The notes beneath the pieces are model-generated. The model searched no databases. It was not told the origin of the DNA and saw nothing but the letters and a program-made list of their open reading frames with translations. The position numbers were made by a program, and so were the translations under genes. DNA of 34,487 nt from a virus: positions 1 through 34,487 of the IMG/VR virus record IMGVR_UViG_3300009593_000059. One strand, written 5' to 3'. This document shows positions 1 to 24,100 of this stretch, piece after piece (position 1 is the first letter of the stretch; each line of letters opens with the position of its first letter).

Positions 1-1673
1 GTAATTCTAGCATCACCATTGACAACTAAATCTTCACTATAGAATCCAGTATCAACACCAACATGCAACTTAGTTGCAGTTGCTACTCCACTAACATTCC
101 AATTTCTAGTATTTGCTTCATCGTATATAATATCACCAGTAACATTTAAGTCGCCAGTTAAAGTTAAATTAGTTCCAGTAGCATTTTCTGCCAACTCAGA
201 TGCAGTTCCACCACCAAGATCCTCACTAGAAATTCCTATCCAACCAGTTTGGATTCCAGCATAAATGAGTAATTTATTTCCACCAGTTTCTTGATCGAAA
301 GTGACATCATCTAAATCCTTAATGAAAGCAGCACCACCCCCACCTATACTATAAAGTTGTTTTTGAACTCTATCTGTAAATAACTTATAACTCTTTGCTA
401 ATTTAGCTAAGGTGTCAAAATCTTGATCTATAGGAGTGAGAGGATCTTTAGATTGCTTGATATATGGGTCAGGACCAGAAACTACGGTTGACTCATTTAG
501 ATCTTCTTGAGTTTTCTTTAACTCTTCAACAATCTTATATAACTCATTAATATTAATCCCTTGACTTCCTATTCTCTCATCCAATTGAGATACTTCTTCT
601 CCCAAGTTCTGAATATCTTTATCATAATATTTTACTTCAGGAAGATTTGAAATGTCCTCTTTTACTTCATTAAAATACTCAGTAAGAGCTGAAGTAATAG
701 TATTTTGGGATTCTATATTTGTATCATTTAATTCCTTTAAATCCTTCTCTAATTTTTGCTTTAATTTATTATGCTCACCCAATAATTGTTTCTTTAACTT
801 TCTATCATCATCTTTAAATTGATCGCGATGATCCCATACTCTTGATGAATATTCCTTTAACTCTTTATAAATTTTATCCTTGGATTCTTCAAGATTTTTA
901 GTTAAGCCTTTAATATCTACTTTAGATTCAAATTCCTTAGTATCTACAGTTTCAGAAAGTTCTCTAATTTCTGTAGTGATTCTTCCTTGAATTAAGTTTA
1001 GATTATCCTGAACTTTAATAAAGTCATCATCAATAACACTAAAAGTTTTCCCAATCCAAGAAAAATCAGGAACTTCATTAACTTCATTAACCCACTTAGG
1101 GAAAACTGGAATACTATCTAATACTTCTTGAATATTAGTTTTTAATGATTCAATATCTTCCTCATAATATTTTACCTCAGGAAGATTTGAGATGTCTTTC
1201 TTAATATTATCAATTCTAGTTTGAAGAAAATTAATATCTTCTTCATAATATTTTACTTCTGGAAGTTCATCAATATTTTGATCTGTAAGATCCAATCTAT
1301 TCTCAATTTTTTCAATCTGTTCATCATAATATTTTACCTCAGGAATAGAATTTCTTACTTGTTTTACTTCTTCTAAAAGATTCCCTAATTCCTCATCATA
1401 ATACCTAATCTCAGGAATATCTGGAATATCATTACGAACAGAATTAATTAGATGCAATACCTCATTAAGATCGTGTGAGGTATTTTTATCCTCCACAAAT
1501 TCTTCTCTTATTTCTTCTACCTCTACAATCTCCTCTTCTTCTTTCTCTTCTATGAAGTCAGAAACTGATGGTAATTCTTGTTCTATTAAAAAATCATTAA
1601 CAGATGGCAATTCATTAGAATTGTCAGAATAATCTTCTATTGAAGGTAATTGATCGTCATTGATATCTGACAT
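1..1673 (-). CDS. Coiled-coil / tail-fibre-like virion protein, 3' part outside window
   Basis: An open frame runs from ATG at 1673 through the left edge without a stop (557 complete codons seen), so the C-terminus is missing. The first ~65 residues are very acidic and carry three LPS[IV]xD[FY] motifs (residues 9-15, 22-28, 34-40). A charged helical region follows with five copies of [IL]PE[VI][KR]YY[DE], four spaced about 26 residues apart, which suggests a segmented coiled coil. After a GGGG linker come fibre-like beta repeats (LTLTGDLNVTGDIIYDE, then WNVSGVATATKLHVG), very similar in style to the protein at 17080-18075. It follows gp16 by 45 nt. In T4 the next gene would be the large terminase gp17, but this is not a terminase. 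Inference: an elongated virion component, perhaps a fibre or whisker. The exact role is unknown. Confidence 0.85.
   Translation of the reverse strand, partial: MSDINDDQLPSIEDYSDNSNELPSVNDFLIEQELPSVSDFIEEKEEEEIVEVEEIREEFVEDKNTSHDLNEVLHLINSVRNDIPDIPEIRYYDEELGNLLEEVKQVRNSIPEVKYYDEQIEKIENRLDLTDQNIDELPEVKYYEEDINFLQTRIDNIKKDISNLPEVKYYEEDIESLKTNIQEVLDSIPVFPKWVNEVNEVPDFSWIGKTFSVIDDDFIKVQDNLNLIQGRITTEIRELSETVDTKEFESKVDIKGLTKNLEESKDKIYKELKEYSSRVWDHRDQFKDDDRKLKKQLLGEHNKLKQKLEKDLKELNDTNIESQNTITSALTEYFNEVKEDISNLPEVKYYDKDIQNLGEEVSQLDERIGSQGININELYKIVEELKKTQEDLNESTVVSGPDPYIKQSKDPLTPIDQDFDTLAKLAKSYKLFTDRVQKQLYSIGGGGAAFIKDLDDVTFDQETGGNKLLIYAGIQTGWIGISSEDLGGGTASELAENATGTNLTLTGDLNVTGDIIYDEANTRNWNVSGVATATKLHVGVDTGFYSEDLVVNGDARI
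622..1420 (-). repeat. Five [IL]PEVKYY[DE] repeats in a coiled-coil region
   Basis: Copies lie near 1390-1420 (IPEIRYYDEEL), 1317-1347 (IPEVKYYDEQI), 1238-1268 (LPEVKYYEEDI), 1158-1188 (LPEVKYYEEDI) and 618-648 (LPEVKYYDKDI). The first four are about 26 residues apart and the last is separated by a longer charged helix. The Pro/Tyr-Tyr element probably marks a kink or junction between helical segments. Confidence 0.8.
1554..1649 (-). repeat. Three LPSxxDF short linear motifs in an acidic N-terminus
   Basis: The translated copies read LPSIEDY, LPSVNDF and LPSVSDF, at residues 9, 22 and 34 of the protein starting at 1673. They are separated by low-complexity Asp/Glu/Asn/Ser sequence. The repetition inside otherwise disordered sequence suggests docking peptides for a partner protein. 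The partner is unknown. Confidence 0.75.
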
Positions 1674-1718
1674 TTCTAACCTATTAGTATAATACTTTGG
1701 GATTTTTCTCCCTACAAT

Positions 1719-2147
1719 CTATTTAGACTTACTATTATTCTTTAAAAGCTTTTGTAATTCTGCTGTGGATCCAACAAACAATGCATTAGTTACATTTGTG
1801 GGGGATTTGGATTCTTTCTCTTCATTAACATCCTTTACTTTCTTCTGAAGATCTAATAATTTATCAGTAGCATCAGAAACACTCTTAATTAATTGTCCAG
1901 CAACTTCATATGCCCTTGGCATCTCACTTTCCTGAGCAAGCTCTAGAATTCCATTAATAGCTTCTTGTCCCTTTTCAATTATAGAATATAAATTTCCTCT
2001 AGTATATTCATAATCTTTTGTGATATCATCTTTGGTAAATCTATCAGGCTTTTCTCTATCAATACCAACAGAAACCTTACTCTCATCTACTGATATTTCA
2101 GTAGGAGTAATATTAAATTCATCATTCAAGCTTTCATAGTCTGACAT
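1719..2147 (-). CDS. 16: Terminase small subunit gp16
   Basis: A 142-residue, mostly helical, charged protein at the position of T4 gene 16 (directly after gp15). The family regulates DNA packaging by binding concatemeric DNA and modulating the gp17 motor ATPase. The sequence shows an acidic N-terminus, a central DYEYTRGNLYSIIEKGQEA segment, a coiled-coil-like LIKSVSDATDKLLDLQKKVK stretch (about residues 87-106) and a C-terminal LQKLLKNN tail, typical of the gp16 oligomerising core in marine T4-like phages. The start at 2147 lies 10 nt after the gp15 stop with TAAGG upstream, suggesting coupling. T4 gp16 is slightly longer (about 164 aa). The identification rests on synteny and overall character more than on a unique motif. 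Confidence 0.82.
   Translation of the reverse strand: MSDYESLNDEFNITPTEISVDESKVSVGIDREKPDRFTKDDITKDYEYTRGNLYSIIEKGQEAINGILELAQESEMPRAYEVAGQLIKSVSDATDKLLDLQKKVKDVNEEKESKSPTNVTNALFVGSTAELQKLLKNNSKSK
1720..1727 (-). promoter_or_regulatory. Late-promoter-like TCTAAATA upstream of the left-edge gene
   Basis: TCTAAATA on the minus strand overlaps the gp16 stop codon (1719-1721) and lies 46 nt before the ATG at 1673. It contains the CTAAATA core, with two mismatches to TATAAATA. It is further from the start than the other candidates. Confidence 0.35.
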
Positions 2148-2157
2148 TTTTTATACC

Positions 2158-3168
2158 TTAGAATGTATTTCCATCAAATCCAAAATCATCACCAAACTCA
2201 ATTAATGATGAATCTATTCCAGTGCCAGAAGCAGTTTCTGTGTAATCAATACCCAGAACCTTAGATCCTAATACATGATTCTGAATAGTGGTATTATCCT
2301 GAGCTCTTCTTACTGTGAGTTTATTTCCAGTTACAGATTCAACGTACATCTCCTCAGTACCAATATAAATGTACTTGTTAGCCTTAACAACACTTCCATC
2401 ATCTACTTCAAGAATTTCATCAGTAAGATTAACATTTTCTGCTAACAAGGTTACAATGTCTCCATTATAATCTTTAGTAGCTCTTGGAACTACCTGATAA
2501 GTAAGATCTCTTACTGATGATGTTCCAGCAGACTTGGATCCTGCAACATAACCAATAGAAACCTTCTTAATAATATCTCCACTAACATCCGATATAGGAC
2601 CAAATACATATGTCTTGGCTGTAAAGGTTAGTGTATAAATGAGAGCTCTTCTTGTATCAAAATTACCTTCATAATCATCCTCCATAGTAATATTGTCAAG
2701 TTGAATAGGAACATCCCTCTTCTCTTTTAAGTTACCTAAAAAATTAATTGGAAGATTATATGCTGGTTGAAAATAAGGAATAATCTGTTCAATTATTTGA
2801 AGCATGTCATCATTGAGTTTAGTCATAATAGACAACTCAAAAGTCATATTATATGGTACTGGCATATAAACTTTTTTTACTTCTTTTCCATCAGGAGTTT
2901 GAGTAATTATTGTTTGTGACTGGGTTGATTTCCTACTAGAATCATATTGAAGACCCAAGAACTCAAATGACATCCGAGGAAGAGTCATCTGAGTTGGAGT
3001 ATTCAAATCAGCTTCTTGCTGCATTCTAGCAAGAAACTTTTGTGTAGGACCATAAGCTAAAGGGACTCTAATATCTCCAGAATCCTTTTTAACTTCTATA
3101 CCATTAAAAATAGAACCAAATCCAATAATAACGGATCTAAAGACCTCATTATAGAAATACTCAAACAT
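2158..3168 (-). CDS. 15: Tail completion / sheath stabiliser protein gp15
   Basis: Homologue of T4 gp15, which caps the tail tube and sheath and forms the joint to the neck. The start MFEYFYNEVFR matches T4 MFGYFYNSSFR, and residues 105-138 contain YNMTFELSIMTKLNDDMLQ followed by IIEQIIPYFQP, nearly collinear with the T4 block ending in IVEQILPYFQP. The protein has 336 residues against about 272 in T4. Residues ~244-307 form an extra module (YIGTEEMYVESVTGNKLTVR, then a T..Q.H..G tail) also present in the giant protein and the 2530-aa protein. A late-promoter-like CATAAATA lies 35 nt upstream of the start and overlaps the gp14 stop codon, and gp16 follows 10 nt downstream. Confidence 0.93.
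   Translation of the reverse strand: MFEYFYNEVFRSVIIGFGSIFNGIEVKKDSGDIRVPLAYGPTQKFLARMQQEADLNTPTQMTLPRMSFEFLGLQYDSSRKSTQSQTIITQTPDGKEVKKVYMPVPYNMTFELSIMTKLNDDMLQIIEQIIPYFQPAYNLPINFLGNLKEKRDVPIQLDNITMEDDYEGNFDTRRALIYTLTFTAKTYVFGPISDVSGDIIKKVSIGYVAGSKSAGTSSVRDLTYQVVPRATKDYNGDIVTLLAENVNLTDEILEVDDGSVVKANKYIYIGTEEMYVESVTGNKLTVRRAQDNTTIQNHVLGSKVLGIDYTETASGTGIDSSLIEFGDDFGFDGNTF
2248..2439 (-). repeat. C-terminal 'EMYV..VTGN.LTVRR....T...H..G' module of gp15
   Basis: Residues ~244-307 of gp15 lie outside the part alignable to T4 gp15. The same pattern occurs in the giant protein near residues 97-155 (LLKIGDEIIEY) and near nt 20790-20910 (LLKIDDEIVVVEEI then LVRRSQVGTT), and in the 2530-aa protein near nt 7125-7260 (ISSEIIKYTGVSGNTLTGIT). 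It is probably a small all-beta module. Confidence 0.7.
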
Positions 3169-3202: not shown

Positions 3203-3210
3203 TATTTATG
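3203..3210 (-). promoter_or_regulatory. T4-late-type promoter octamer CATAAATA upstream of gp15
   Basis: CATAAATA on the minus strand is one mismatch from the T4 late consensus TATAAATA recognised by gp55-programmed RNA polymerase. It overlaps the gp14 stop codon (3206-3208) and lies 34 nt before the gp15 ATG. The site is inferred from sequence only. Confidence 0.6.
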
Positions 3211-4642
3211 GCATACCAAATGGATTGGTTTCTGAGAAGTCAATAATTAGATCCGCCTCAGATTCAATATTCTGATTGTCTGCAAATGGAGTAGTAGTTA
3301 AAGTACCCTCAACATTGGTTCTATCAGTGTCATAAACATTTGTAGACCCAATAACATAAACAGCTCCAGAATCTTGTCCAAGAACTTGTTCACCCCTGAT
3401 AAAGGTTCCATCAATAGTTGCAATTGAAAGATTGTTATTAATAGAATTCCACTTCCTAACTCTTGCCGTGGTGCCTGAAGTTTGTCCAGTAACAACTTCA
3501 TTATAATTATAAGAACCTGTTCCAATTCCTGTTGATCCAGGAGCATCAATGGTAATTGTAGGACTTCCTGTATATCCAATACCACCGTAGGTAATATACA
3601 ATGATGTAACAATGCCAGCGGTGTTTATAGATGCATATCCACGAGCAGTATTAATACCACTAGGAGGAGTGCTGAATGTTACTGACGGAGAAGTAGTATA
3701 TCCAGAACCTTGACTTGTTAATGTGACAACCCCAACAGTACCAGTAGAAATACCTGCTGTTGCAGCAGCTCCAGCACCACCACCACTTTGAGTTCCAATA
3801 CCTATAGTAATCCAAGGAGCAACTGTATAACCACAACCAGCATTGGTTATATAAATATCATCAATTTTTCCACCTTCTTCAGTACCATCACAATTAATAA
3901 ATGTCTGATTAATAGAAGCAATACCAATAGCAGTAATACCTCCAGAGGGGGCTGAGGAGAATCCTATGACAGGTTGGGAAGTATATCCACTACCCATATT
4001 GGTCATATAGATCTTATTAACTCCCCCACTAGCACAATAAGATGCACTAGCTGTTGCTTGAGAAGCAGATCCTATAAGAGTTAAGGTTTGGATATAACCT
4101 ACCTGTTCAATTTCATCATCAATTTGTTCTATACCAGTATCAATGACCTCATCTTCATATCTGAAGAGTTCACATCTTAATTGATAAACATAATTTTTCT
4201 TTAATTGATAAAATGGTTGTTCATGTTCAACATATTTAATTTCAAATAATCTATCACCTAATGGGAAATAAATTATGTCTCCCTCTTTAGGTCTATCATA
4301 TAATTCAACATTAGAAAGATTCTTCATCAATGGACTAATATAAGTCTCAAATCTTTCTCTAGAAATGACTAAATTTAAGTCATCCAATTCTTGAATACCA
4401 AACTTAGAAAGAAGAGATCCTTGTCCACCATAACCATCATAATTATCCACATAAGCTTCTATGGGATAAGCATCATCAAAGGTTGATTCTACTACTTCTT
4501 TAATTACAGTATTTTTGGTGATATATTTTCTGGGGATATAATATACCTCTACTCCATACATCTGAATCTGCTCATTGATGAGAGATTGGAGTAGGTTTTG
4601 TTCTCCTTTAGAACCTTGTAAAAAATAGGAATTGAGTACCAT
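3206..4642 (-). CDS. 14: Neck protein gp14 with large internal repeat insertion
   Basis: T4 gp14 homologue; with gp13 it forms the neck that closes the filled head and docks the tail. Residues 20-170 match the family: LINEQIQMYGVEVYYIPRKY (T4 VAESIQMRGVECYYVPREY), FGIQ, then GDIIYFPLGDRLFEIKYVE and PFYQL. The conserved C-terminal tail is DFSETNPFGMP. The protein has 478 residues against 256 in T4. The surplus is an insertion at ~205-435 made of four GxGYT-type beta repeats (GSGYT 217, GCGYT 269, GSGYT 312, GIGYT 354), followed by a TGQTSGTTARV module (382-432). The start has GAGG upstream, overlapping the gp13 TGA stop 9 nt away, so translational coupling is likely. This is a confident call with an atypical architecture. 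Confidence 0.92.
   Translation of the reverse strand: MVLNSYFLQGSKGEQNLLQSLINEQIQMYGVEVYYIPRKYITKNTVIKEVVESTFDDAYPIEAYVDNYDGYGGQGSLLSKFGIQELDDLNLVISRERFETYISPLMKNLSNVELYDRPKEGDIIYFPLGDRLFEIKYVEHEQPFYQLKKNYVYQLRCELFRYEDEVIDTGIEQIDDEIEQVGYIQTLTLIGSASQATASASYCASGGVNKIYMTNMGSGYTSQPVIGFSSAPSGGITAIGIASINQTFINCDGTEEGGKIDDIYITNAGCGYTVAPWITIGIGTQSGGGAGAAATAGISTGTVGVVTLTSQGSGYTTSPSVTFSTPPSGINTARGYASINTAGIVTSLYITYGGIGYTGSPTITIDAPGSTGIGTGSYNYNEVVTGQTSGTTARVRKWNSINNNLSIATIDGTFIRGEQVLGQDSGAVYVIGSTNVYDTDRTNVEGTLTTTPFADNQNIESEADLIIDFSETNPFGMP
3524..4030 (-). repeat. Four GxGYT beta-repeats inserted in gp14
   Basis: Residues ~205-373 of gp14 hold four imperfect units of about 42-52 aa with the pattern [IV]xxIYITNxGxGYTxxPxITIxxxP followed by a Gly/Ala-rich turn. 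The same unit is found in gp8, the 499-aa protein, the 2530-aa protein and many times in the 4265-aa protein. This is a protein-level repeat; the DNA copies have diverged. Confidence 0.85.
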
Positions 4643-4650
4643 GTCTTACC

Positions 4651-5493
4651 TCAACCAATAAGGTCCAAAGGTGGGAGTTCATAAGTGCTGAGCATACTTT
4701 CTCTAATGCTGTCTATTTCTTTTTCAGCATCATCATAGATTTGTCTTCCATTAAATTCAATACCACCAGGAAGTTTAACACCAGTAAATTTAATCAGATT
4801 CATACCCCATTGCCTTTTCATCAAAGCAGTAGCATATCTCTTAAGGAAGAAATCATTCCATACACCAGTGAATGAATCACCACTCAAAGCCCTCCAACAA
4901 TCAATGACAAGATAATCATTTACCTTTACTTCTGTCCATCTAACATCAATATACAACCTATCCATTCTTTGATTAAATCTAATCTGCTTATGAGTATTCA
5001 AAAGAAAATTCATAGTTTCCAGATAAGACATAGCCATTGTGTAGCTCAACAAATCTGTAGTTCCCCAATGATAAACATCATTTAAGAATAACTGATATTT
5101 AAAGCTAAACATGTTAGCGCTACTAATAGATGAAGCTTCATCATACTGAAAAATCTTAGTAATTCCAATAATATCAGATGGAATAGGAAGATAATTACTA
5201 TTCTCTTCAAAATTGAATTGAGTAGTAACCCCAACAGTAGTATTAACTGTTGTAGTGGTTATGCCAGCTGGATTATCTGTATTAGCCTTACCTCTATCAA
5301 TATCTTCTTGAGTAATCTTATACTTTAAATAAGTTTGTGATACTCCATCATAATGTCTCTCATGCCAATACTGTAAAGCGTCATCAATTAAGTCCTCACA
5401 TTGCTCCTCAGAAATATTAATTTCCAGCACAGGAGCTCCCAATTGCCTTAAACAATAGTTCTTAAATTCCTCTCTTGAAGCAGGCTGTGCCAT
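4651..5493 (-). CDS. 13: Neck protein gp13
   Basis: Homologue of T4 gp13, the head-completion/neck protein that joins the portal to gp14. The N-terminus has FKNYCLRQLGAPVLEINISE with a Gln/Asp-rich helix (T4 LKDVILRRLGAPIINVELT). The C-terminal third has FFLKRYATALMKRQWGMNL, then KLPGGIEFNGRQIYDDAEKE and a PPLDLIG end, matching the T4 LPGGVTIDGQRLIEEA and PPFGILVG. It has 280 residues against 309 in T4. A CATAAATA late-promoter-like octamer lies 24 nt upstream. No clear Shine-Dalgarno is visible before the ATG, only repeated AGTAGTAGT. gp14 follows after 8 nt. Confidence 0.93.
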   Translation of the reverse strand: MAQPASREEFKNYCLRQLGAPVLEINISEEQCEDLIDDALQYWHERHYDGVSQTYLKYKITQEDIDRGKANTDNPAGITTTTVNTTVGVTTQFNFEENSNYLPIPSDIIGITKIFQYDEASSISSANMFSFKYQLFLNDVYHWGTTDLLSYTMAMSYLETMNFLLNTHKQIRFNQRMDRLYIDVRWTEVKVNDYLVIDCWRALSGDSFTGVWNDFFLKRYATALMKRQWGMNLIKFTGVKLPGGIEFNGRQIYDDAEKEIDSIRESMLSTYELPPLDLIG

Positions 5494-5908: not shown

Positions 5909-6109
5909 TTACTTGTCTATAAGGATCTGAATCATACTCTTAATGTCACCTATTTCATTTTCTAACTTATCAATCCTTTCTTTATCAGAAAGAAGTTTAT
6001 CTCTGTTTTGAACGTAGGACTGATAAGCTAAATTATTTTTATTTACTATAGCTTGGGTTTCAGTATCTCTAAAGAAACCCTCCATCCCTTTTACTGGTAT
6101 TAATGTCAT
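5909..6109 (-). CDS. 66-aa coiled-coil protein
   Basis: Small protein with an N-terminal GMEGFFRDTETQAIVNKN segment and a C-terminal heptad-like helix (LLSDKERIDKLENEIGDIKS, then MIQILIDK) that predicts a coiled coil. Its ATG shares one base with the TAA stop of the 2530-aa gene (TAATG), the classic arrangement for coupled translation, which supports it as a real gene. The N-terminal motif resembles small adaptor proteins kept beside structural genes in marine T4-like phages. The exact function is unknown. A trimeric attachment or whisker-like role is possible but not shown. Confidence 0.75.
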   Translation of the reverse strand: MTLIPVKGMEGFFRDTETQAIVNKNNLAYQSYVQNRDKLLSDKERIDKLENEIGDIKSMIQILIDK

Positions 6110-9100
6110 TATGCTAGTGCTATAGTTCTTAGATTTCTAAACTGAGGAGGAACTGCCTGATTTGTACTTGTACCTATAATCTTGATTCTAAATGAATCAA
6201 ATGGTAGAAGATTATTAGCTGTAAACTTATGTTCCCTATACAGATTCAATCCAGGATTGGCTGTAAATACGTCTGTCTTAGCAACTTTAGTATCTGACAA
6301 TCCACTACTACCAGAGGTACTAATAATATCACCTCTATTATCTATATTTCCATATCCGGGGAAAGGAGTAAAGATAACTTCATCAACCCTATTCTTTTGG
6401 TTAAGAGCGTAGAATACTCTAACATCATTGTAACTGCTGATATAAGCGTCCAAGTAAACTTGTAGTGAAGTGCCTGGATTCTCCAAATTGATAGTCTTAG
6501 TTACATAGAAACATCTGTTAGGATCATCAGTTGTTGTCTTAACATTGTAATCATTTACCCAGTCAGATACTGGTGAATTGACTCTATTAGAAACAAATAC
6601 TACTGCAACTTGATCTAAATCAACAGAAGGAGTTAATCTTGAATCCTCAGAAACAAGATTTAGATTCATAGTCAAAGACTTATTTCCTGGGAGATCTCCT
6701 AAAAGAGCATCCTCATTAGTCTTAGAAGCGACAATTCTTGGACTATCAAAATAATTCTCTCTATTGAGTGATATTTTTTGGAATCCTTTATCAACAAATG
6801 AAGCTTCAATTCCATCAATACTCTTACCAGAAGTTGTTCTAATAGAAGCGTTGATATTAGTTCCAGTTGGAGCCATACTATTGAAGTTTGGAATAGCCAT
6901 CTCAAATGGAACGTTATAAGTACCTTTGGCTATATTTCCAGTATTAGTTTTTTGTGTATTAATAAAGAGTGGTGAGAATAGTCCAGTATTTGTTCTATTG
7001 GTTCCTAAATCAGTATCAGAGGTATCAATCTTAACATGATATGTATCTAAGGTAATAGGATCTGGAACTGAAGCCTCATTGAGATTGTGAGTGGTGTTAA
7101 TCCTTCTCAAGGAAATACCATCTAATTCATACTTATAAGCCAAATCATTGATATCGTGATTCTCAACTGGTGTAGAATCAAATCCTCTAGTAATACCAGT
7201 TAATGTATTTCCACTAACCCCAGTATACTTGATAATCTCACTACTAATTTTAATATATCCTGGATTAGTAGCTCCAACTGAAACATTCTCAAAATTAGCA
7301 TAATTGAGAGTATTGCCAATACCAATTGAACCAGTAGAAGTGTTGGAATATGCTGATGTCAATTTGGAAGGATCTAAATCTGATGTAATACCCTTAAGTG
7401 TAACTACATTAGTTGTAGCATGCATTCCATGATTTCTCTGGAATATCTTCATATGCAATCCATCATCAATCACTCTAATTGGTGATTCTGGAATAACACT
7501 TCCACCACCAGAATAATTCAATGTAGTAGAAACTCCACTACTATTGGTATAATTGAGATATTCTCCAGCGGATGTTCCAAATTCACCCTGTACATCCTTA
7601 ATTATTAACTCATTATTTCCAAAGAGTTTATTTACTGAGAATTGCATCCCAGCACCAAGTGTTTTATTCCCAATACTAATTGGTGATAATACATCACCAA
7701 TTTGATATCCTTTACCTCCTCCATTTCCACCAAATCCGAAGCTAGAAATTGTAGCTGCAATAGCTACTCCATTTTCAATGGCTATTTCAGCAGTAGCATC
7801 AATACCATTACCAGTTAAACTAGTAAGTGCAACACCAGAGAAAACATAATAAGCTGAGGAAGGTGTATATCCTACTCCAGCGTTAGTAACAGTCAAAGTA
7901 GAGTGTGCAGAACCAGCATAACCCACCAGAGTACCTTCACCAGTAGTTCCACTCTGAGTAATTACATTACCTGCAACTAGTCCAGTATCAGCTACTGTAG
8001 TCCCAAGACCAACTCTAATTGATTTTGGTGTAAGTGTGATTCCATTTTTAGGAATAGCTTGTAAATCTTCTGGAAGATCTGGATTAAAGAATTGGACTGA
8101 ACCATCAGCTACAAAGTCTGCTCTAAACAGCTCAAATGCCAAGTCCTCATATTGGCTAGGAGTCCAAGTAGAAGCGTTCTGAGACTTAAAGAGTGATCCA
8201 AGTAGTCTTTGTGTAGAAACAAGTACTTGATTTTCTTCAGTAGCTAAAGTGGATATATCCGACTCACCCAATCTAGAAATCCAAACCCTATAATCTGTAG
8301 AGTTAGAAAGAAGAATGACAGCATATTCTGTCTGTCCATTCAAATATACTGGAGCGTGGAATTTAAACTTAGTAACCGCACTTGCATTCTCAGATACATC
8401 AATATCTTCAGGACTCATATCCACTTCAGAATATGCTAATATTTTTCCAGTAGGTGTTCCAAGTTCTACTTCTCTAAGTTGTAAAGTAACTGGAACACCA
8501 GCCTTATCCTTCTCATGGAAATATACATCTACACTAGTTAGATATACACCAGTAGGATCATCAACCATGAAGCTTTGTGCTAGCGGGTCAACATATTCAC
8601 CAGTCAATCTAGAAGAAGAACCAGACTGGAATGTGGTACTTGCTGTAGCACTATCACCAATAGTTCTGGTTTCTCTGAAGCTATCATCATGAGTAACTCT
8701 AGCATTTCTCAAAGACAAAGTAACTTCTTGTGTATTATCAATATCACCTTGAGAGTAGAAAATCTCCTCACAAGCTGTAGTTACAGTTCCTTCTATCTTA
8801 CTATCAATTGGACTACTAGTAAGTCTAAGTCTTGATCTACCTGTTTCAAATATTGGATTAGATGGATCAGCTGAACTTGGGACTCTATAAGAACCAATAA
8901 GTGTACCAATTCTATCAGTAACAAGTCTTACATCTCTAATTTCTGCTTGAGCTCCACTATTAACTCCCCTTAGAATCATTCCTTTAGCAATGAATCCTTG
9001 GAATTGTGGACTATCTTCAGCAGCTAAACTAAATGTATCAACATTCAAGATAGTAGAGGTTTCAGAATATTCTGCTGGTATTCTAACCTCTCTATTATAT

Positions 9101-12100
9101 GGGTTTCTATCATATCTATCACTAGGATTATTATAAGGACCATACTTATGGTTGGTAGAAGCTACTCTGAATACAATAGCTGGTTTAGTTACCTCATCAA
9201 TTTGTTCAGATTGTTCTACAGAAGACATCAAACCTCCAACAGCCTCACCAACCTCAAAGGTTCCGGAAACCATTTCAATTTCAATCAATTTAGGCATGTT
9301 GAACTTGGATACGTCAACATTATCAAAGAATGGATATACCTGAGTATAGGGCTTCATCCTTGTTGCAGTGAACTCAATATTACGAGCTCTCATGAAGTGA
9401 ATAATATTTCTACTTACAATTCTATCTCCTAGAGATTCAGTATCAATTTGTTCATTAACAGTGGTTTGAGTACCTTCTCTTTGTTGACTTAAATCAACAC
9501 CAACAGTACCTGTAATAGTTGTACTGGTAGTTGTAGTCTCTTCTGCTACCTGGAAAGTAGAAGGAACACCACCTTGCCAAGCTGTAGTTACAGCTCCACC
9601 CAGAAAATTCAATCCTTCAGATCTTGTTCCTTGTCTTGGAGAAGTAGTTGTTTCTGAAGATTGAGAAGAATCCAAACTAAAGGAAACATCTACACCTGTA
9701 GTTTCCCATGCCTTCCAAATAACAGGACTTAATCCAGATCTTGATCCATCAGCTGCGGTAGTTATTTCAGCTCTCATAGCCTCAGCAACACCTCTGAATG
9801 ACCCTTCCTGAAGGACATCCCTCAATTCCATTCTATTGACATCAATCCAGACATCAACAGTAGGTTCAAACTTCAATGAACCTTCCCAGAACTTAACTAA
9901 GAAAGGAGTTACACTTTCAGATCTTGTGACAAATGGTTGCCTTAACCATGATTGTTCTTGATAATCAAGAGTAATTACTTGACCAGCTCTCTTAACATTA
10001 GTTCCTAGAATATCAGCATATCTAGAATCTTGATTAGCTGCATTAGTAGTACCAATACCAGCCATGCTAGTATTACCAACCTGCAAATTAAAGGAAGTTG
10101 TGTAATGAGTTGGTCTCATTACTCTCTTTGTTGAATCAATACTATTTCTAAATCCAACACCTGTATCTTGAGGTTGAGTAGATGAGAAGTTATCAACATA
10201 AACACCAGACTTAAATCTATTAAGTCCGTTGGCATCAGGGACAAACAGATTCATCGTACTTGATTCAATCTGATTCAAAGAAGTATAATACTCAAGATTT
10301 TTAATTCTTTGCTCCAACTTGGAGATATCTGTCATTTGATATCTCTTATGATCAATAAACGATACACGTGCTTGACGAGCATCAAACATATAAGCTGGAA
10401 GAGATATGTTAGCTATATTCAGAGCACCTGATACCTCTTCTGGAAGAGTAGGATTATCATCAGGAGCTCCTTGCTTAACACTAAAGATTCCATCTCTATC
10501 CAAGTATACCCTATCAATTCTAGGAAGATAGTAACTATAACCTAATGAAATTGATTCATCAGAAGCAATGACATATTTGGAACTGTGTTGTCCACCATCA
10601 AAGTTTCTTCCATCAAATTCAAATGGTGATCTTACTCCTTCTGCAGGAGTATAGTCACTAACTCTAGGTCTAGCATCAATAATATCAGTATTTCTAATTC
10701 CATCAGTGGATGAAATCTCAGATGAATAATTGAAGTCGTCATAAGAATTTACTAGAGTAATATCTCCAGTATCAGCAGGATTATAATATGCGTTTAAATA
10801 ATATACTTTCAGTTTATTGGTAGGAACTGGTGAATTTACCTTTCTAACAATTCTTGAATAATCATAGATTGTTTCTCTTTGACCATTAGAGAAAGTGTAA
10901 TCCTCAGTTACATTGGGACTACCAATATCAATATTAGCTGCAAGAGCATTAACTCCAGACTGGGAGAAACTGATTACCTCTCCATTTTCAAAAACAGTAT
11001 TGTTTTTGTAGATAAAGGATACTGAAGTATCACTCTTTCTTGTAATGTAGAGTGCTGATGCACCACTAACAGTACCAACAATTTCCTCACCAAGAATTAA
11101 ATCATTTGTCGTTCCTGTAGGACCATCAGAAGAAGCTACAGTTAGAGATGGAGGATTGGGATCATCTGAATTTTTGGATTCAAATATTCCAAAAATGGTA
11201 ACAACATCAGGCTTATTCAAACAAATAACAGGATCTTGAACTCTAGTACCAAAAGCATAATTTCCATAAGTTAATCCATCATTAAAAGTAGTTCCACCAA
11301 TACCAGAACCATCTAATGAAGACTTATTAATTACTACAGAATTTACTATAGGATTAACCTTAGTCTTAGAGGTGATATAACTCTTACGTAGAGTTGCTAT
11401 TAATATACTACTAGAATCATCAGACCCAAGTCCATCTATCTGTATTTGAGTAGATCCACCTGTAAATATAAATTTATCAGCTGATAGAGCCTCAGTAGAT
11501 CCATCAGAACGAATTAATGTATATCTTTCTTCATCAAATGGTAAGAACACTTCATTGCTACTGGCTGATAGTGTAGCAGTAGCTCCATCAGTAATAGTTG
11601 TTTCAAATTGCTTCCTAATTGTAATAACTGCCCCATCCAAAACAGCGTTTTGAATATTTTTCTTGGGGAAAATACTATAAAGTGTATTATTACCAGAAGT
11701 ATTTCCACTAGTACGATTATTTTGAATTCTAGATTCAATTACGGCAAGATCAGTTACTTCAGTAGTAGAGGAAGGAAGACCTCCATCAACAAATCCAGTA
11801 ATAGTGGAAACTCCTGAAACTACAATGGAGTTTGTATTGACACTATCTACTTTAGCATAAGATATATCAGTCAATCCAGGAATCGCATATTGAATCAAGT
11901 TTCCTGTAGTTACAATACCTGGCCAAGTAGTTGTAGGAGTTGTAATTGTACAAACACCAGAATATGCGCTAATGCTAGCAATACCAATTTCTGACTTGAC
12001 AGTTTGAAGTAAATCTGCTGTAAATGTTTTAGCAGCTCCTACAACACCATAAACAGATTTGATATCAGAAATTTCATAATTTTTGATGTCTGTAGTAGTT

Positions 12101-13701
12101 CTTCCATTATCAGCAACACCATTAAACTTCAACCTCTCCCCAATGAAGAACTCGCCTTGTACATCATAAGCTGTAAGAGCAGTTCCAACAGATACACTAT
12201 TTCTTAAATATGCACTTGCTCCACTAGATTGACCTTGAATGAATACTGGAGTGTTTAATGTAATAGACTCATTAACTGTGAGGTCTGTATATGTCTGAAG
12301 ATCGAATAATGAAAGATCCCACTTATTAAGATCTGGTCTAGATGTATCATAAGATCCAGATTCTAATGCGTAGTCATAAATTCTAGAAACTCCAATTTCT
12401 TTACCTGGAGCACTTCTTTGATCATCACCAACTCTTTCACTTCTCAAACTAAGAGTATTGGTGGTATTAAATCCTATAGTTGCAGAACCATATGACCTAT
12501 TGACTGTAATAGTAGGTCCAAATCCAAAATTAACTGCTTGATTCTCAATCAATCTAGTAGTTCTGGGTTTTTCAATATCTAAGAAAGTAGGTCCTCTTAC
12601 ATCAACCTCATATCCTCTAATATATGCCTTTCCTGGTCCAATCTTATAAATGCAAAGATCATCACTAGGTACATTTCCATTCCAAGTAGTTTGACTAGAG
12701 GTATAAACTCCTCTATTACCATAACCATTGTTAAGACTTTCTCTAACAGTAGTTAAAAATTCTCTAATGTAATAATGTCCAGATTCATCAAATGTTCTTC
12801 TTGCTAACTCTTGACCTAGAATATTGTAATCTACAGAATCATTAATTTCTCTAAGAATACCATTCCTAACTTCTGCTAGTTGAACAAAGTTCTGATCATT
12901 GAAATCATCACTCTCTTTTTTAGCAAGGATAGCTTCAATCTGAAATCTGTCAGCTCCAGGAGCAGTATAATTATTAAATCCCTGAGCATTATCAGTTAAA
13001 GTGGGATCAATGTCTGAAGAAACAATATCTTCTGTGACATTTAAACCTACCCTATAACTTGGTCTATTACTATACTGATCAAGAATTAATATCTGATCTA
13101 AAACATCAACAAAATATCCTCTAAGGAAATATACACCTTGACTTAAAGCAAACGCAGATCCAACTGCACTAGCATCCTGTGTAAGAGTTTTAGAAAATCC
13201 TTCTCCAGCAGCAATGAATGTAGTGGTAAAAGAAATGGCCTCTTCTGTCAATAATACTTCATTATCAAAAAAAGTATTAGTAGCTAAGTCTGTAGTAGCT
13301 GATTCAAAATAATCAACATATAATGTCCATGTTCCTTTTTCAGATTCTTTATCTGTAATATATTTTACAACTTGAGCAGTGACTCCAGATGTCTCCCCAA
13401 CAATTCTCTTACCAACTAATTGATCCAGATATAAAGAAACTGGAATACCCAGAAATTCTGGTTCAATTTGAATAGCATAAAAATTGCTCAAATAAGACAG
13501 TTGCCCAGGAATGACCTTGGCTCCTTCTTTAAACAAATGGGTTCCTACATCTTCAACCTGATTTTGTAATGTAGATTGAAGATTATTTAATTCCCGAGCC
13601 TGTACAGGGTATCCGGGTTTAAATAAGACTTTGTAATAATTACTTTGCGGATCGAAATCGTCAAAGTATGGAGCAACATTAAGATTGGTTTCCTGTGGCA
13701 T
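6109..13701 (-). CDS. 2530-aa virion structural protein (DUF4815-type baseplate/tail protein)
   Basis: A giant structural protein between gp8 and the neck genes, where T4 has gp9-gp12 and fibritin. The N-terminus (NLNVAPYFDDFDP, then YYKVLFKPGYPVQARELNNL at 22-41) is the hallmark of DUF4815-type proteins of marine myoviruses. A second conserved block at ~1424-1467 reads IVSRNIIHFMRARNIEFTAT followed by PYTQVYPFFD. A third at ~1699-1790 begins DPLAQSFMVDD and ends NGQTEYAVILLSNS. Scattered between are shared modules: SGA-type units near residues 95, 480, 869 and 1569; GxGYT units near 1934-2007; and an EIIKYTGVSGNTLTG unit near 2147. It starts 6 nt after the gp8 stop and ends in TAATG overlap with the 66-aa gene. 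By position it may replace gp10/gp11/gp12 functions at the baseplate periphery. That role is inference; that it is a virion protein is well supported. Confidence 0.85.
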   Translation of the reverse strand: MPQETNLNVAPYFDDFDPQSNYYKVLFKPGYPVQARELNNLQSTLQNQVEDVGTHLFKEGAKVIPGQLSYLSNFYAIQIEPEFLGIPVSLYLDQLVGKRIVGETSGVTAQVVKYITDKESEKGTWTLYVDYFESATTDLATNTFFDNEVLLTEEAISFTTTFIAAGEGFSKTLTQDASAVGSAFALSQGVYFLRGYFVDVLDQILILDQYSNRPSYRVGLNVTEDIVSSDIDPTLTDNAQGFNNYTAPGADRFQIEAILAKKESDDFNDQNFVQLAEVRNGILREINDSVDYNILGQELARRTFDESGHYYIREFLTTVRESLNNGYGNRGVYTSSQTTWNGNVPSDDLCIYKIGPGKAYIRGYEVDVRGPTFLDIEKPRTTRLIENQAVNFGFGPTITVNRSYGSATIGFNTTNTLSLRSERVGDDQRSAPGKEIGVSRIYDYALESGSYDTSRPDLNKWDLSLFDLQTYTDLTVNESITLNTPVFIQGQSSGASAYLRNSVSVGTALTAYDVQGEFFIGERLKFNGVADNGRTTTDIKNYEISDIKSVYGVVGAAKTFTADLLQTVKSEIGIASISAYSGVCTITTPTTTWPGIVTTGNLIQYAIPGLTDISYAKVDSVNTNSIVVSGVSTITGFVDGGLPSSTTEVTDLAVIESRIQNNRTSGNTSGNNTLYSIFPKKNIQNAVLDGAVITIRKQFETTITDGATATLSASSNEVFLPFDEERYTLIRSDGSTEALSADKFIFTGGSTQIQIDGLGSDDSSSILIATLRKSYITSKTKVNPIVNSVVINKSSLDGSGIGGTTFNDGLTYGNYAFGTRVQDPVICLNKPDVVTIFGIFESKNSDDPNPPSLTVASSDGPTGTTNDLILGEEIVGTVSGASALYITRKSDTSVSFIYKNNTVFENGEVISFSQSGVNALAANIDIGSPNVTEDYTFSNGQRETIYDYSRIVRKVNSPVPTNKLKVYYLNAYYNPADTGDITLVNSYDDFNYSSEISSTDGIRNTDIIDARPRVSDYTPAEGVRSPFEFDGRNFDGGQHSSKYVIASDESISLGYSYYLPRIDRVYLDRDGIFSVKQGAPDDNPTLPEEVSGALNIANISLPAYMFDARQARVSFIDHKRYQMTDISKLEQRIKNLEYYTSLNQIESSTMNLFVPDANGLNRFKSGVYVDNFSSTQPQDTGVGFRNSIDSTKRVMRPTHYTTSFNLQVGNTSMAGIGTTNAANQDSRYADILGTNVKRAGQVITLDYQEQSWLRQPFVTRSESVTPFLVKFWEGSLKFEPTVDVWIDVNRMELRDVLQEGSFRGVAEAMRAEITTAADGSRSGLSPVIWKAWETTGVDVSFSLDSSQSSETTTSPRQGTRSEGLNFLGGAVTTAWQGGVPSTFQVAEETTTTSTTITGTVGVDLSQQREGTQTTVNEQIDTESLGDRIVSRNIIHFMRARNIEFTATRMKPYTQVYPFFDNVDVSKFNMPKLIEIEMVSGTFEVGEAVGGLMSSVEQSEQIDEVTKPAIVFRVASTNHKYGPYNNPSDRYDRNPYNREVRIPAEYSETSTILNVDTFSLAAEDSPQFQGFIAKGMILRGVNSGAQAEIRDVRLVTDRIGTLIGSYRVPSSADPSNPIFETGRSRLRLTSSPIDSKIEGTVTTACEEIFYSQGDIDNTQEVTLSLRNARVTHDDSFRETRTIGDSATASTTFQSGSSSRLTGEYVDPLAQSFMVDDPTGVYLTSVDVYFHEKDKAGVPVTLQLREVELGTPTGKILAYSEVDMSPEDIDVSENASAVTKFKFHAPVYLNGQTEYAVILLSNSTDYRVWISRLGESDISTLATEENQVLVSTQRLLGSLFKSQNASTWTPSQYEDLAFELFRADFVADGSVQFFNPDLPEDLQAIPKNGITLTPKSIRVGLGTTVADTGLVAGNVITQSGTTGEGTLVGYAGSAHSTLTVTNAGVGYTPSSAYYVFSGVALTSLTGNGIDATAEIAIENGVAIAATISSFGFGGNGGGKGYQIGDVLSPISIGNKTLGAGMQFSVNKLFGNNELIIKDVQGEFGTSAGEYLNYTNSSGVSTTLNYSGGGSVIPESPIRVIDDGLHMKIFQRNHGMHATTNVVTLKGITSDLDPSKLTSAYSNTSTGSIGIGNTLNYANFENVSVGATNPGYIKISSEIIKYTGVSGNTLTGITRGFDSTPVENHDINDLAYKYELDGISLRRINTTHNLNEASVPDPITLDTYHVKIDTSDTDLGTNRTNTGLFSPLFINTQKTNTGNIAKGTYNVPFEMAIPNFNSMAPTGTNINASIRTTSGKSIDGIEASFVDKGFQKISLNRENYFDSPRIVASKTNEDALLGDLPGNKSLTMNLNLVSEDSRLTPSVDLDQVAVVFVSNRVNSPVSDWVNDYNVKTTTDDPNRCFYVTKTINLENPGTSLQVYLDAYISSYNDVRVFYALNQKNRVDEVIFTPFPGYGNIDNRGDIISTSGSSGLSDTKVAKTDVFTANPGLNLYREHKFTANNLLPFDSFRIKIIGTSTNQAVPPQFRNLRTIALA

Positions 13702-18114: not shown

Positions 18115-21100
18115 TTAAACAATGTAATCTTTATATTTTAATGGATTATATCTAGTAACCAGTCCAGAACTAGAAATACCTGAATAACCATCTTCACCAT
18201 AGAAATTAAATGATTGTGGATTTGTCCTACCAGCCAAATCAATCTTACCCCAACTATAAGAACCAAGATATGCGGAAGAACTAATTCCCCCAGCATAAAC
18301 TGCAAATGTCTGTGAATCAAATGTATAATTAGTAGAATCAAATGTAATTAATGTTGAAGCAAAATCTACTGTACTAATACCAGAAATATTAGCAAATACT
18401 CTCTTAACCATAGTGACACCAACACCAATCACATTCTTATCCAAGAGTTGAGTGTCAGAAACTTGGAAAACACTATCCAAGAATGATGTTGTAATGGCTA
18501 CCTGAGTAACAGAATCATTTTGTAGACTTACAATAGTCTCTTCATCTGCTGCAACACTAGTGTTATAAGTAGTGAAGAAATCACCTGTGGAAATTCCACT
18601 TACCGTAATAGCACTTCCAACAACATCAGTGTCCCTCATATATGAATTAGTAGGAATATAGAAATCTAGAATAATCTTAGTCTGAGATGTCATTCCACTA
18701 ACAAAAGTGGATATTCCAAATCCAACCACAATACCATTATCACCAGTATAAGAATTTACATTAATTCTTTCCCTTACTAATTTGGGAGATTCAATTAAAA
18801 CACTGGGGGGATTGGTTGTAGTATATCCATATCCAGGAGTTTGAACAGTAATGAGTGAAACATTATCATCAGACAATTCAGATACTGCTTTAGATGTTCC
18901 AGTAGTTCCAACTCCAATAGGATTACTAATAGAAATTGATGGAGCTAGGGTGTAACCAATACCAGAATTGGTAATATCTAAAGAAGTAATAGATCCAGCA
19001 ACAGATACAATAGCAGTTGCCATAGCACCTACTCTAGAATCCTGAGATGTTATTTCAATCTTATTCTGGAATCCTCTAATCTGTTGCTCATTATATGAGT
19101 CAAAGAAAGGTCTTAAGTTGTCAACATATGCTGTTGTAGAAGAACTAACAATTGGTTGGAGAAGATAAGCTGAAGGATAAATCAAAGGCTCATAATGATC
19201 TCTATCCTTACCAATCTTTACACCATTAATAATCTTATCTTGTAATTGCTTATACCAATTAACAGGTCTTGTAAGAGTTGAATCAGTAGTAATTCCAGGA
19301 CCTGCATAAGGATTAGTAGAAACAGAGTCAACAGTATTAATACCAATTACTACTCTCTCTTCTTGATCTAATCCAATTCCTTGACCATTGCTTGGATTAT
19401 TATTAATATCTAAACTATCACCAACTTTAACGGTTTCAAGAATATCATTGAACACAACATCCAATTCTCCAGTTCCCTTATAGAATAAGATTTTGGATTT
19501 ATCTCCAGCATTTGGTGGAGAAGTAAAGGTAATAACACTACCACCTGAGAATGTATATGCAACCTCTGGTTCTTGAATTACTTCATTAATGAAGACTAAC
19601 AAAGTTTTATCTACTTCAATATTAGAACCAGTAGCCGCTCTGATACTAAATGGATTATCATTTAGAGTTAATCTAAATGCTGTCTCTGATCCATTAAATT
19701 CATTATCTAAATTATCTAGAACTTCAAGAACACCTAAAGACCAACCACCAAATCTATCATTATGGGACCCATCAACAGTAATATTAAATTCCTCAAAAAC
19801 TTTTGAAGTATCTAATGGAATTCCTAATGATGTATCCACTCCTACTGTTAATATTTCCCCTTCCCCATAACCATGACCAAAATATTTAATTTCAAAATCA
19901 ATTATACTAGAACCTTGTCCAACTACAATATCAATTGTAGCTTCAGTTCCTAATCCAGCAACAGAAGAACTACTGTAGATTAAAGGAAGATTGGTATAGC
20001 TCCAAGGATCATCAAACACTACTTCTGGTGGATTAGTAGATGTATAACCACTACCAGGATTGGTAATGTCTACACTAACAACATGACCACCACTAACTAA
20101 TGCAGTTCCAACAAATTCAATATTAGGAGTTCCAGAACTATAAGTTTGAACTCCAACATTTACAACAGTTTGAACTCCTACCCTATATCCAGAGCCAGTA
20201 TTTCCAATACTAATAGAAGAAATAGTTCCAAGACCAGAAACAATAGCAGTTCCACCAGCACATACTAGAGGTTGATATCCATATCCATCATTAGATGATA
20301 CAGAAACAATAACACCACCTCTAGGAAGATCTCCAGCATTAGTGTCATAAGTAACAGTTGTGCCTGATCCAGTAAATGTTACACTTGTAATTCCAGAAGC
20401 TTCATCAATATCATAATTGGAAACTTTTGCTTGAGCTCCTTGTGGTTCCTGGAAGACGTTATTAATTAAAATAACCGCATTATCAGTAGAGAATCCAGTA
20501 ACATTAGAACCACCAGACTTAAGATTAAAATAACTTTGAATTCCAGTAAATTCTGAAGAAATGTCATCAAAAACAAAGTTATCACTATAGGCTGGATTGG
20601 GACTAGCTGGTACACCAGATCTAATAAATGTTCTTCCTTGGAAAGTAGAATTAGTAGAAATACCAGTCCAATCTCTATAATCAGGATTACCAGTTGTAGT
20701 ACTTAATGGAACCTGTCCATAAGGAGCCTGAGAGAAGTATAAAGTATTTCCTACAATATTATAGTTTCCAGAAATCTTAGTGACTACAGACCCACCACCA
20801 TGAGCATTAACTGTTGTTCCAACTTGAGAGCGTCTAACCAATATATTATTAACTCCACCAACTCCAATTTCCTCAACAACAACAATCTCATCATCAATTT
20901 TAAGAAGGTCTCTAGCTGCAATAGATGTTACTCCACTTAAAGTCAATTTAGTATCAAATACAATTGGAGCTGTAAGAGTATGAGTAATACTAGTATCACT
21001 AATTGGAGATTGAATCATATTATCAATAGCAACCAATGCTTTTGAATTCGCATTAGTTGCAGTCAAACTATGAGATGTTCCAATTCCAACAGAAGAGATT

Positions 21101-24100
21101 TCAAGAGAAACTGGAGGATCTAATAATGCATTAGAAGCACTTGAAGCAAATCTCAATTCAGAATCATTAACCTTAATAGCATAAAGTGTAGGCGGTAACT
21201 TATCAGTTACTCCAATACCAGGAACTGTAGCTGTAACAATTCCAATAGCTTGAGTTGATCCAGCTCCAGCATATGCATATGTTAACTCTTCACCAGTAAC
21301 AAAGAAGTGATCAGAAATTTGAATAGCATTTGGATATAAATTAGTTCCTTCAATATACCTTCCTCTCTGTGAAAGATAATTCTTGCTGACTTGGAAGGAA
21401 TCCAATCCCTTATCCTTATAAGTCCTTACTATCCCCACTGTTCCATTAAAGGAAACAGAAGGACATCCAGCATAAGCTCCAATCCATATATCAGTTCCAG
21501 TAGGACTAGAATCAATAGACTCTGTATAGATTTGAGTGGTTCCTTTTACTCCATTTAAATAGACATCAACATATTGACCAATTCTAGTAACTACAACATG
21601 ATTCCATTCATCCAATAAGACAGTTCCACCATCATATATAAAATCAAGTTGTGTTTTACCAACCTGATTATGATTAAATGAAGTTATTAAATTTCCATTT
21701 TGATCAATATAAACTATAAAGATATTATCGGTACTCATCATACCGGCCCAACTACTTATTAATGCTGATGGACACACACTTGATGGAGTATCTTCCATCT
21801 TAGACCATACCTCAAAAGCAAAGTCTCCTGAGAAATCAAAATCAGTGTCAGGAACTAATGCCCTTCTCGTATTTCTAAAGTTATAACCATAACTATCATA
21901 TTTTGTTGTAAGATTGATTAATGTGGCGTCATTTCCTGAAGAACTTCTATCTGTCCAAGTAGTAGTTCCATCGGCAGTTTCACCATCCAAATACATGATT
22001 AAACCATCTTCTACAGTATCTTCACCAGTTTCTCCAACTACAATTCCATTAGAACCATCAAAATCTCTCTTGAATATTTCTAATCCTTCATGCTTAAGTC
22101 CAAAAGCATCAACAACATCATTTTGACTCCCTTTATAAACTCCAACATCACCTTCAATAACAATATTGTTTAAATCAATCAATTCAGGATGAGCATTGTC
22201 ATCCCATTCTTGAAGTTCTAATCCAAGAATTCTTACTTCTACATCTGCACTAGCTATAGGAGTGAATGTGAAATTAATATTGGATCCTACTGAGGTAATA
22301 CCCACAGTTCCAATATTTCCTCCAGTTTCTACATTTGCAAACTCAACCCAAGAGTTATGAGATTCAGAATTAATAATAGCAACTTCTGAACATTGATATT
22401 GGGAATTAGTAGTATCTTCTACAGAAACAAAGTAATAAGCACTTGTATATGGTGTCTCATAAGTAGAAATAACATTTGCTGTTGGTGAACCAGAAGCAGA
22501 AATAGATCTATAAGATGAAGTTACTCTACCAACAGTAACTGCAGTAGAACCAACACCAACTCCACCAGATGAAATAGCCATTACCGAACTATTAGCGGTA
22601 ATTGCAACAGATACATTTGGATGGAATTCTACTATCATATTAGATCCACTAATAGAAGCTCCAAAAGTACCAAATCCAGTAGAAGTGGTATTTAATTCAC
22701 CAAATTCTACCATTGAAACTTCAGTTCCATCATGAATCAAATTCATCTCTTGAACAGAGAATCCATTATTAGTATCTTCAAGTTGAACATTAACTTTAGC
22801 TGATCTATAAGTTGAAGATATAGAAACCACTGTTGTAGTGGTGCCAGCAGCAACATTTACAAAAGAACCAGTTACAATACCAACATTACCCAGAGGTAAA
22901 TCTTCAGTGAGAATAGCATCATTTAATATTGATATATCTACACTTGAAACAGAATAATTATTATATTCAAATTTAATTGGATTCCAAGATAATCTCCAAG
23001 AATCAGATGCTACAATGAAATCATATGATCCCAATCCAGTATCAGGATAAGTGGATAATGTACCATACTCATTAATATATCCAATATCATTATTCTGTAA
23101 AATTGATACTATTGAGAACTGTCTTTCATCAGTATAAGTAGTATCTTTGGCTAAAGTGAATATTTTATTATACTTTCTATTAAAATCATATGAAGCTATA
23201 GCACTATATTGAGTAGCTCTTGGATTACTATTAAAGATTCCACTAAAATCATCAATGGATAATACTCTATTACCAACAGATTCATAGAAATCTGTAAGAC
23301 TTCTATTCTCAAAGTCAATCTCTTTAGAAATGATTACATTTCCTACTTGAATAGTTCCTTCAGTTACATAATCAAAGTCATAATAACAATTAAGGTATCC
23401 TATACCAATAATATCATTTACAATTTCAATATTAGAATCAATGGGAAGAGTAGTTAGATTTTCTGAGTCACCACTCTCAATAACTAAATCACTAAATTTA
23501 GCAAATCCACTAGTATGGTTAAGAACACTTACTGGATCATCCCAATCTTCTAAAGCAACCCTTGACTTCAATGAATAAGAGAAATTTTGATAATATTCAT
23601 TGTTTGGTAACTTTTGTAAGTTATCATTCAAGAATCCTGAATTAGATTGCCATCCAGAATTGAATGTTGCTCCAGCTCCAATTAAAATTTCAGCATCAAA
23701 GTTAATTTTAGATTGAATTACTCCTTGTGTATTAGAACTTTGTCCCTTTACAATACTACCAACTTTATATTCTTTATTAGTTGTAATCTTCAATTCTTCT
23801 AAAATTGGATCCCAATTCTCAACATATCCTAGTTGATCATCACTCTTCACTGGTTCCCCAATAAAGAAATTATTTTTCTTTAATACTGGCTTATAAATTG
23901 GGAAGTCAATTTCTGAAATAACTCTAGCATTAGATTTTGATGGAACCATAGTTCCTGGAACATCTCCATCACTAATATAATCTGATAATTTATATTCAAT
24001 CCAAGCGCCAGTTCCACCTAATTGACTATCAGCATTTGTAACCTCAAATAAACTATAATCATAATCTTCAGAATTAAATCCCTTTCCAGTAGATCCAATT

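Follow-up and report, generated by a model that had tools for sequence, protein, structure and literature searches.

A conserved array of LPS[IV]xD[FY] peptides as a candidate multivalent anchor of an adhesin-like fibre in a T4-like marine cyanophage

The neck whisker protein of bacteriophage T4, fibritin (gpwac), is reported to be a segmented coiled coil with loops, which has an N-terminal attachment region and a C-terminus that can be swapped (PMC3797505). At the neck, fibritin is bound by domain III of gp13, residues 190-239 (PMC12270204). A cyanophage neck fibre has been described in the Anabaena phage A-1(L), where gp82 is attached through its N-terminus and sits on a 15-fold ring (PMC10966104). 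A review reports that wac, g10-g12, g34, g35 and g37 are missing from T4-like cyanophages, and describes the g15-g18 interval as the hypervariable region of the cyanomyoviruses (PMC2984593). Fibre attachment in T4-like cyanophages is largely obscure, and the peptide array described here offers a concrete candidate for an anchor that appears to be under strong selection.

The stretch of DNA analysed, here called the window, comprises the 34,487 nucleotides of IMG/VR record IMGVR_UViG_3300009593_000059 and is a fragment of a marine T4-like cyanophage. A preliminary description of its sequence had noticed three near-identical peptides at the start of one protein and had suggested multivalent docking to a partner such as a capsid, terminase or neck protein.

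The fibre gene and its surroundings

The T4 gene names in the window were partly assigned from PHROG labels and position. Upstream of the fibre-like gene the order is gp25, gp6, a 4265-residue baseplate-like protein, a gp53-like wedge protein, a 2530-residue protein, gp13, gp14, gp15 and gp16. The 4265-residue structural ORF (18115-30912, minus strand) belongs to phrog_2885, baseplate wedge, and the 2530-residue structural ORF (6109-13701, minus strand) to phrog_358, the function of which is unassigned in PHROG. Profile matches, used as context, place the head-tail adaptor of the neck, gp13, at 4651-5493, the head closure protein of the neck, gp14, at 3206-4642 and the tail sheath stabiliser gp15 at 2158-3168; the small terminase subunit gp16 (phrog_445, 7.7e-55) occupies 1719-2147, and all four are on the minus strand. 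Directly downstream of gp16 lies the fibre-like gene (3-1673, minus strand), of which 557 codons are translated; it is open at the window edge, and its 3' end, like gp17, lies beyond the window. Its orthologues, gene 093 of SynMITS9220M01 (1167 residues) and a protein of Marine virus AG-345-E15 (1284 residues, the largest size among the complete relatives), are both encoded between gp16 and gp17. The proximity to terminase genes noticed earlier is therefore real, since gp16 adjoins the gene in the window and gp17 follows it in these two phages, but these neighbours only mark the hypervariable g15-g18 region reported for cyanophages (PMC2984593). Among 152 IMG/VR loci that extend far enough upstream, 145 have the C-terminus of gp16 just ahead of the fibre gene; two of the seven loci lacking the standard gp16 end (L014 and L079) were read, and gp16 is present there with a slightly different end.

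The window protein matches the tail fibre family PHROG 28263 at 9.2e-34, with the best stretch at residues 330-461, and the complete relatives match the tail-fibre family phrog_17885 at 8.5e-146 (SynMITS9220M01_093) and 1.7e-147 (AG-345-E15). The matches to both families fall in the coiled-coil and C-terminal parts. They suggest that the protein is a virion component, and on the best reading it would be an adhesin fibre carried by a marine T4-like cyanophage.

AlphaFold2 was run on residues 1-355 with 54 sequences; because the pTM of the model is 0.19, only local statements are safe. A segmented coiled-coil region is predicted from residue 70 to residue 355 (609-1466, minus strand), with helices at residues 70-82, 93-109, 115-133, 144-162, 171-187, 205-251, 254-281 and 290-342. 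These helices are 13-53 residues long, and the N-terminal ones are parted by repeated [LI]PE[VI][KR]YY[DE] junctions, the number of which differs between relatives. Residues 191-218 (1020-1103, minus strand) form a highly conserved patch, FPKWVNEVNEVPDFSWIGKTFSVIDDDF, made of invariant or near-invariant columns in the 54 sequences.

Ahead of the gene, a late-promoter-like CTAAATA (1720-1726, minus strand) overlaps the end of gp16; the late promoter of cyanomyoviruses has been given as NATAAATA (PMC2984593). Between this element and the start codon lies a leader hairpin, GGGAGAAAAATCCC (1699-1712, minus strand). In most loci a hairpin GGGAGAGAAATCCC precedes the fibre gene and is followed by AAAGTA and TTACTAATA. 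By strict pairing the hairpin is found in 145 of 154 loci, its stem being GA/TC in 132, GT/AC in 7 and AA/TT in 6. Four exact hairpin strings were searched in SynMITS9220M01 and occur there once, at the fibre leader only. A role as an mRNA-stability or regulatory leader is possible.

The N-terminal motif array

The window protein begins MSDINDDQLPSIEDYSDNSNELPSVNDFLIEQELPSVSDFIEEKEEEE. Its opening residues, MSDINDDQLPS, do not conform to a single N-terminal element like the MKxYxEFIxEA of the T4 capsid targeting sequence (CTS), a candidate that was rejected. The three motif copies, all on the minus strand, are LPSIEDY (1629-1649, residues 9-15), LPSVNDF (1590-1610, residues 22-28) and LPSVSDF (1554-1574, residues 34-40), the last of which is followed by I or V, E and acidic residues. 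The span 1554-1649 given in the preliminary description holds all three copies (residues 9-40); its count of three stands, and its strict pattern LPS[IV]xDF has to be widened to LPS[IV]xD[FY], as copy 1 ends in tyrosine. Judged by AlphaFold2 and by charge, the copies are embedded in a disordered acidic tail of about residues 1-68 (1470-1673, minus strand). The net charge is -21 over residues 1-65, with 37% D+E, and the block-mean pLDDT of 35-56 over residues 1-70 indicates disorder, in agreement with the acidic disordered N-terminus first described. The model places three-residue helical turns inside the motifs, at residues 12-14, 25-27 and 37-39, and further turns in the tail at residues 6-8 and 17-20.

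The three motifs are not due to chance. When the first 65 residues were shuffled 200,000 times, at least one match appeared in 11 of the shuffles and at least two in none. A loose form of the motif, searched across the whole window, returned the same three matches plus a further one that lies in a chance frame of 33 residues, and in a complete related genome of 190 kb the motif was found nowhere beyond the fibre protein. A PDB sequence search with the N-terminal 65 residues gave two chance-level matches only (E 1.1 and 2.2).

Two peptide-pattern searches with the window protein and its shaft yielded 157 loci, 155 of them with readable N-termini. One of the six patterns of the first search coincides in part with the end of copy 3, and those of the second search are clear of the N-terminus. 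Since some loci are different cuts of one contig, distinct N-termini were counted, of which there are 106. By the strict pattern, three copies are counted in 81 of these, two in 22, one in 2 and none in 1; by a relaxed pattern (LP[SPQ] plus a hydrophobic or aromatic residue), three copies are found in 97, two in 8 and none in 1. The sole N-terminus with no copy (L025) comes from a cut contig, in which the text ahead of the first Met shows two copies. The signature of copy 1 is LPSI[DE]D[FY], or LPS[IYV][DEN]D[FYL] in a wider form, that of copy 2 is LPSV[DE]DFIT and that of copy 3 is LPSVE[DE]FIE, and the distances between successive copies vary from 10 to 19 and from 11 to 15 residues. Within an N-terminus that is otherwise variable, disordered and acidic, conservation is highest in the motifs. 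Their conservation in orthologues, which the preliminary description had put forward as a check, is thus borne out, and the finding is the reverse of conserved flanks around unconserved motifs. A tblastn search of the named phages with the 45-residue tail found only SynMITS9220M01 and AG-345-E15, plus one match at chance level, so that nearly all the relatives are uncultured contigs.

The codons of the motif are diverse. Across 298 motif instances, found with a pattern that fixed L, P and Ser or Thr (no Thr occurred), all six Leu codons, all four Pro codons and the four TCN Ser codons are used, and LPS is encoded by 49 different 9-mers. A comparison of 44 independent nearest pairs counts 1 nonsynonymous and 42 synonymous codon differences in the LPS core (pN/pS 0.012); elsewhere in the tail pN/pS is 0.17 at positions 6-7, 0.26 at positions 4-5 and 0.38 in the linkers, all these values being drawn from rows required to have three copies by pattern, so that copy loss, seen as two copies in 8 of the 106 N-termini, is uncounted. 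These values indicate strong protein-level selection on the LPS core. A conserved short motif, a disordered region and variable linkers, the features of a short-linear-motif array, are all present.

Exchange of the fibre at the locus

At least six C-terminal types occur among 79 distinct complete members, while the motif array is kept, which places the array at the virion-proximal end. A downstream gene of 110 residues accompanies all 16 readable members of the PFILAL type and none of the 50 readable members of other types; the other 13 of the 79 have too little downstream sequence for this reading. The gene therefore goes with the C-terminus and not with the motif. The opposite end is also exchanged, to judge from the marine viruses AG-341-P01 and AG-345-O18 (L173 and L174), in which a fibre of the same shaft family at the same locus has a PSDFF-type N-terminus. 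The same shaft family is joined to a PGDFF-type N-terminus in S-CAM7 (AOV62422.1).

A survey anchored on gp16 started from 80 gp16 relatives and gave 75 readable downstream regions, of which 37 carry the LPS array, 9 an xDFF/EFF type and 29 other N-termini, two of the last group (L194 and L219) being FF-type by eye. The 39 LPS N-termini from this survey and the named loci have two copies in 5 cases, three in 31 and five in 3. In the FF-type tails L.[DEN][FL]F occurs two or three times, and in 12 of the 13 loci that were read the copies are 27 residues apart, one of these loci being L088, where the first copy was read by eye. The underlying 27-residue repeat (LGDFFSLIGEEKKK ... SLGDLFASLSEEKKK) is present in up to three copies and was seen in L085, L089, L194, L196-L199, L207, L209, L219 and L237.

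When the LPS type is mapped on a gp15 tree of 61 rows, 8 changes are required, against a mean of 20.7 after shuffling, and at least four of these changes are forced by well-supported branches; the rows of L085 and L088, which are FF-type, bore the label 'other' on this tree, which leaves the LPS count unaffected. The gp15 of the window groups with those of P-TIM68, L194 and L197, all of which have FF-type fibres. The identities of window gp13, gp14 and gp15 are 64, 55 and 59% to SynMITS9220M01, which carries the array, versus 65, 66 and 76% to P-TIM68, which does not. Being as close or closer to the non-carrier, these proteins display no visible co-evolving neck surface. For gp16 the identity to the window is 79.2% in AG-341-P01 and 71.7% in S-SM2, both non-carriers, and 70.0% in the carrier SynMITS9220M01. 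Taken together, the comparisons indicate that the fibre moves as an exchangeable cassette, and its anchor must then work with several neck backgrounds.

Other sequences of the interval also recur. A segment resembling TIEDAxGNxFxEVxDIIxPxP is shared by LPS fibres, by fibres of other types and by small proteins that seem unrelated: it occurs in the N-termini of L020, L043 and L046, in downstream genes of L042, L051 and L060, and at L089 9399-11951 and L090 9432-11423. Short genes downstream of the fibre (in L006, L007, L034, L060, L080, L098 and others) start with an MKxFKxFLxEA-like sequence resembling T4 ipII and ipIII, and are candidates for internal head proteins encoded in the g16-g17 interval. 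A SynMITS9220M01 gene annotated as a cytidyltransferase (L093 32252-33478; record 130252-131478) has the CTS-like start MKNFFQFLSEAQ.

Proposed attachment of the fibre and comparison with known systems

The motif array is rather likely to be a multivalent short-linear-motif anchor that attaches the fibre to the virion and is followed by the segmented coiled coil. The N-terminal 68 residues or so would act as a floppy acidic tether with three docking peptides of the form LPS[IV]x[DE][FY][IL]. Each copy would probably form a short amphipathic helical turn, with the Ser as N-cap and a hydrophobic face at positions 1, 4, 7 and 8, which could fit a groove on the virion partner. The coiled coil suggests a trimer, and a trimeric fibre would offer 6-15 motifs, which might bind a ring of identical sites by avidity. 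Beyond the tether would come the segmented coiled coil, the shaft and the exchangeable C-terminal domain, which presumably faces the host. The multivalent docking first suggested for the repeated motif is thus well supported by the conserved arrays, the apparent selection and the predicted disorder, and the repeated short aromatic motifs at the start of other fibres of this locus point the same way.

The location of the docking site is a guess. The neck or collar is the leading one because T4 whiskers bind gp13 domain III and the neck fibres of A-1(L) a 15-fold ring. The T4 domain III is unrecognisable in the comparison of cyanophage gp13 proteins, in which the middle of gp13 aligns unreliably. 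The site may instead be on the baseplate or the head; the C-terminal families are named tail fibre or baseplate proteins, and a baseplate site would fit equally.

The motifs might serve during assembly only, by recruiting a chaperone for fibre assembly or trimerisation or by bundling several fibres. Repeated motifs in a disordered tail are often a means of recruiting assembly factors, and an N-terminus compatible with many gp15 backgrounds is to be expected if its partner is not a neck protein. Such a role is nevertheless unlikely: no gene was found that travels with the motif, the 110-residue gene follows the C-terminal type, and a basic protein of SynMITS9220M01 with a phrog_727 match has look-alikes beside motif-free fibres. 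It is distinctly less probable that the motifs are a head-targeting signal akin to the T4 CTS, by which the fibre would be loaded on or in the prohead. T4 ipII and ipIII both start MKTYQEFIAEA, and a register of x-x-x-hydrophobic-x-acidic-aromatic-hydrophobic-x-E is common to these starts and the motif copies, with a full fit, out of 97 in each case, in 70 of the second copies and 32 of the third, but in only 4 of the first. Thirteen genes that follow the fibre have CTS-like N-termini; the five-residue core is generic, however, being found near the N-terminus of 11 of 256 SynMITS9220M01 ORFs versus 5.7 expected, and the CTS occurs just once, at the N-terminus, whereas the fibre carries an array.

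Docking on the terminase, either gp16 or gp17, is suggested by the gene order only and is very improbable, because motif-free fibres occupy the same place, carriers of the motif are not set apart by the similarity of their gp16, and the fibre type has a patchy distribution over the gp15 tree. The terminase is not known to be part of the finished T4 virion. The partners named in the preliminary description are unsupported; the terminase is improbable, and a neck protein or another conserved virion site may serve as the partner. That the region, acidic and repetitive as it is, might be low-complexity sequence kept by recent common descent and devoid of a binding function deserves almost no credence, provided that the alignment does not mislead, given that pN/pS is 0.012 for the LPS core and 0.38 for the linkers of the same tails, and given spacings that vary from 10 to 19 residues around motifs that do not.

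A broader proposal can be put forward tentatively, namely that the fibres of marine T4-like cyanophages use multivalent peptide hooks, either 2-5 copies of LPSxx[DE][FY] or L.DFF/PSDFF repeats, which dock on one conserved site shared by these virions. A set of weak contacts, in place of a single lock-and-key domain, would then let fibre cassettes jump between lineages with no refitting of the neck. The array would be a possible reason for the free swapping of fibre genes at the locus, and such a hook would help to explain the hypervariable g15-g18 region.

Among described fibres, the cyanophage tail fibres of PHROG 28263/17885 are alike in their coiled-coil and C-terminal parts, but the relatives in S-CAM7, AG-341-P01 and AG-345-O18 have other N-termini, of the PxDFF type, with no LPS array. 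The FF-type fibres (Bellamy gp121, S-SM2_107 and P-TIM68) occupy the same place after gp16 and have L.[DEN][FL]F-like repeats at the N-terminus. Their tails have a 27-residue spacing, are Lys/Glu-rich and are probably helical, whereas the linkers of the LPS fibres are short, flexible and acidic. A-1(L) gp82 resembles the window fibre as proposed here in being a cyanophage neck fibre held via its N-terminus, but gp82N is a folded pilus-like domain, and the part of the account consulted describes no motif array (PMC10966104). A literature search of limited terms and coverage, at the level of titles and the opening of abstracts, returned no description of such an array in a fibre.

T4 fibritin shares with the window fibre a segmented coiled-coil shaft, here predicted, an attachment region at the N-terminus, here proposed, an exchangeable C-terminal domain and a gene near gp13-gp16. 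The gene orders differ, wac being upstream of gp13 in T4 (12-wac-13) and the window fibre directly after gp16, as do the N-termini, fibritin having one conserved domain of about 50 residues in place of an array of short motifs. The window protein, SynMITS9220M01_093 and the AG-345-E15 protein do not match phrog_1056, phrog_9687 or Fibritin_C, all three of which are matched by T4 gpwac as a control, and the best BLASTP match of the fibre to gpwac (E 0.027) lies in the coiled coil. The fibritin N-terminal core, LP[FY]VDGxP...RIxWIKNGE, is found in T4 and Aeromonas 31.2 and is diverged in RB43, Mm5 and V07; it is not in the window protein, the N-terminus of which has only LPSI/LPSV. With neither a family match nor a shared N-terminal core, identity with fibritin by sequence is ruled out, and the fibre is one that has a fibritin-like segmented layout and is not fibritin by sequence.
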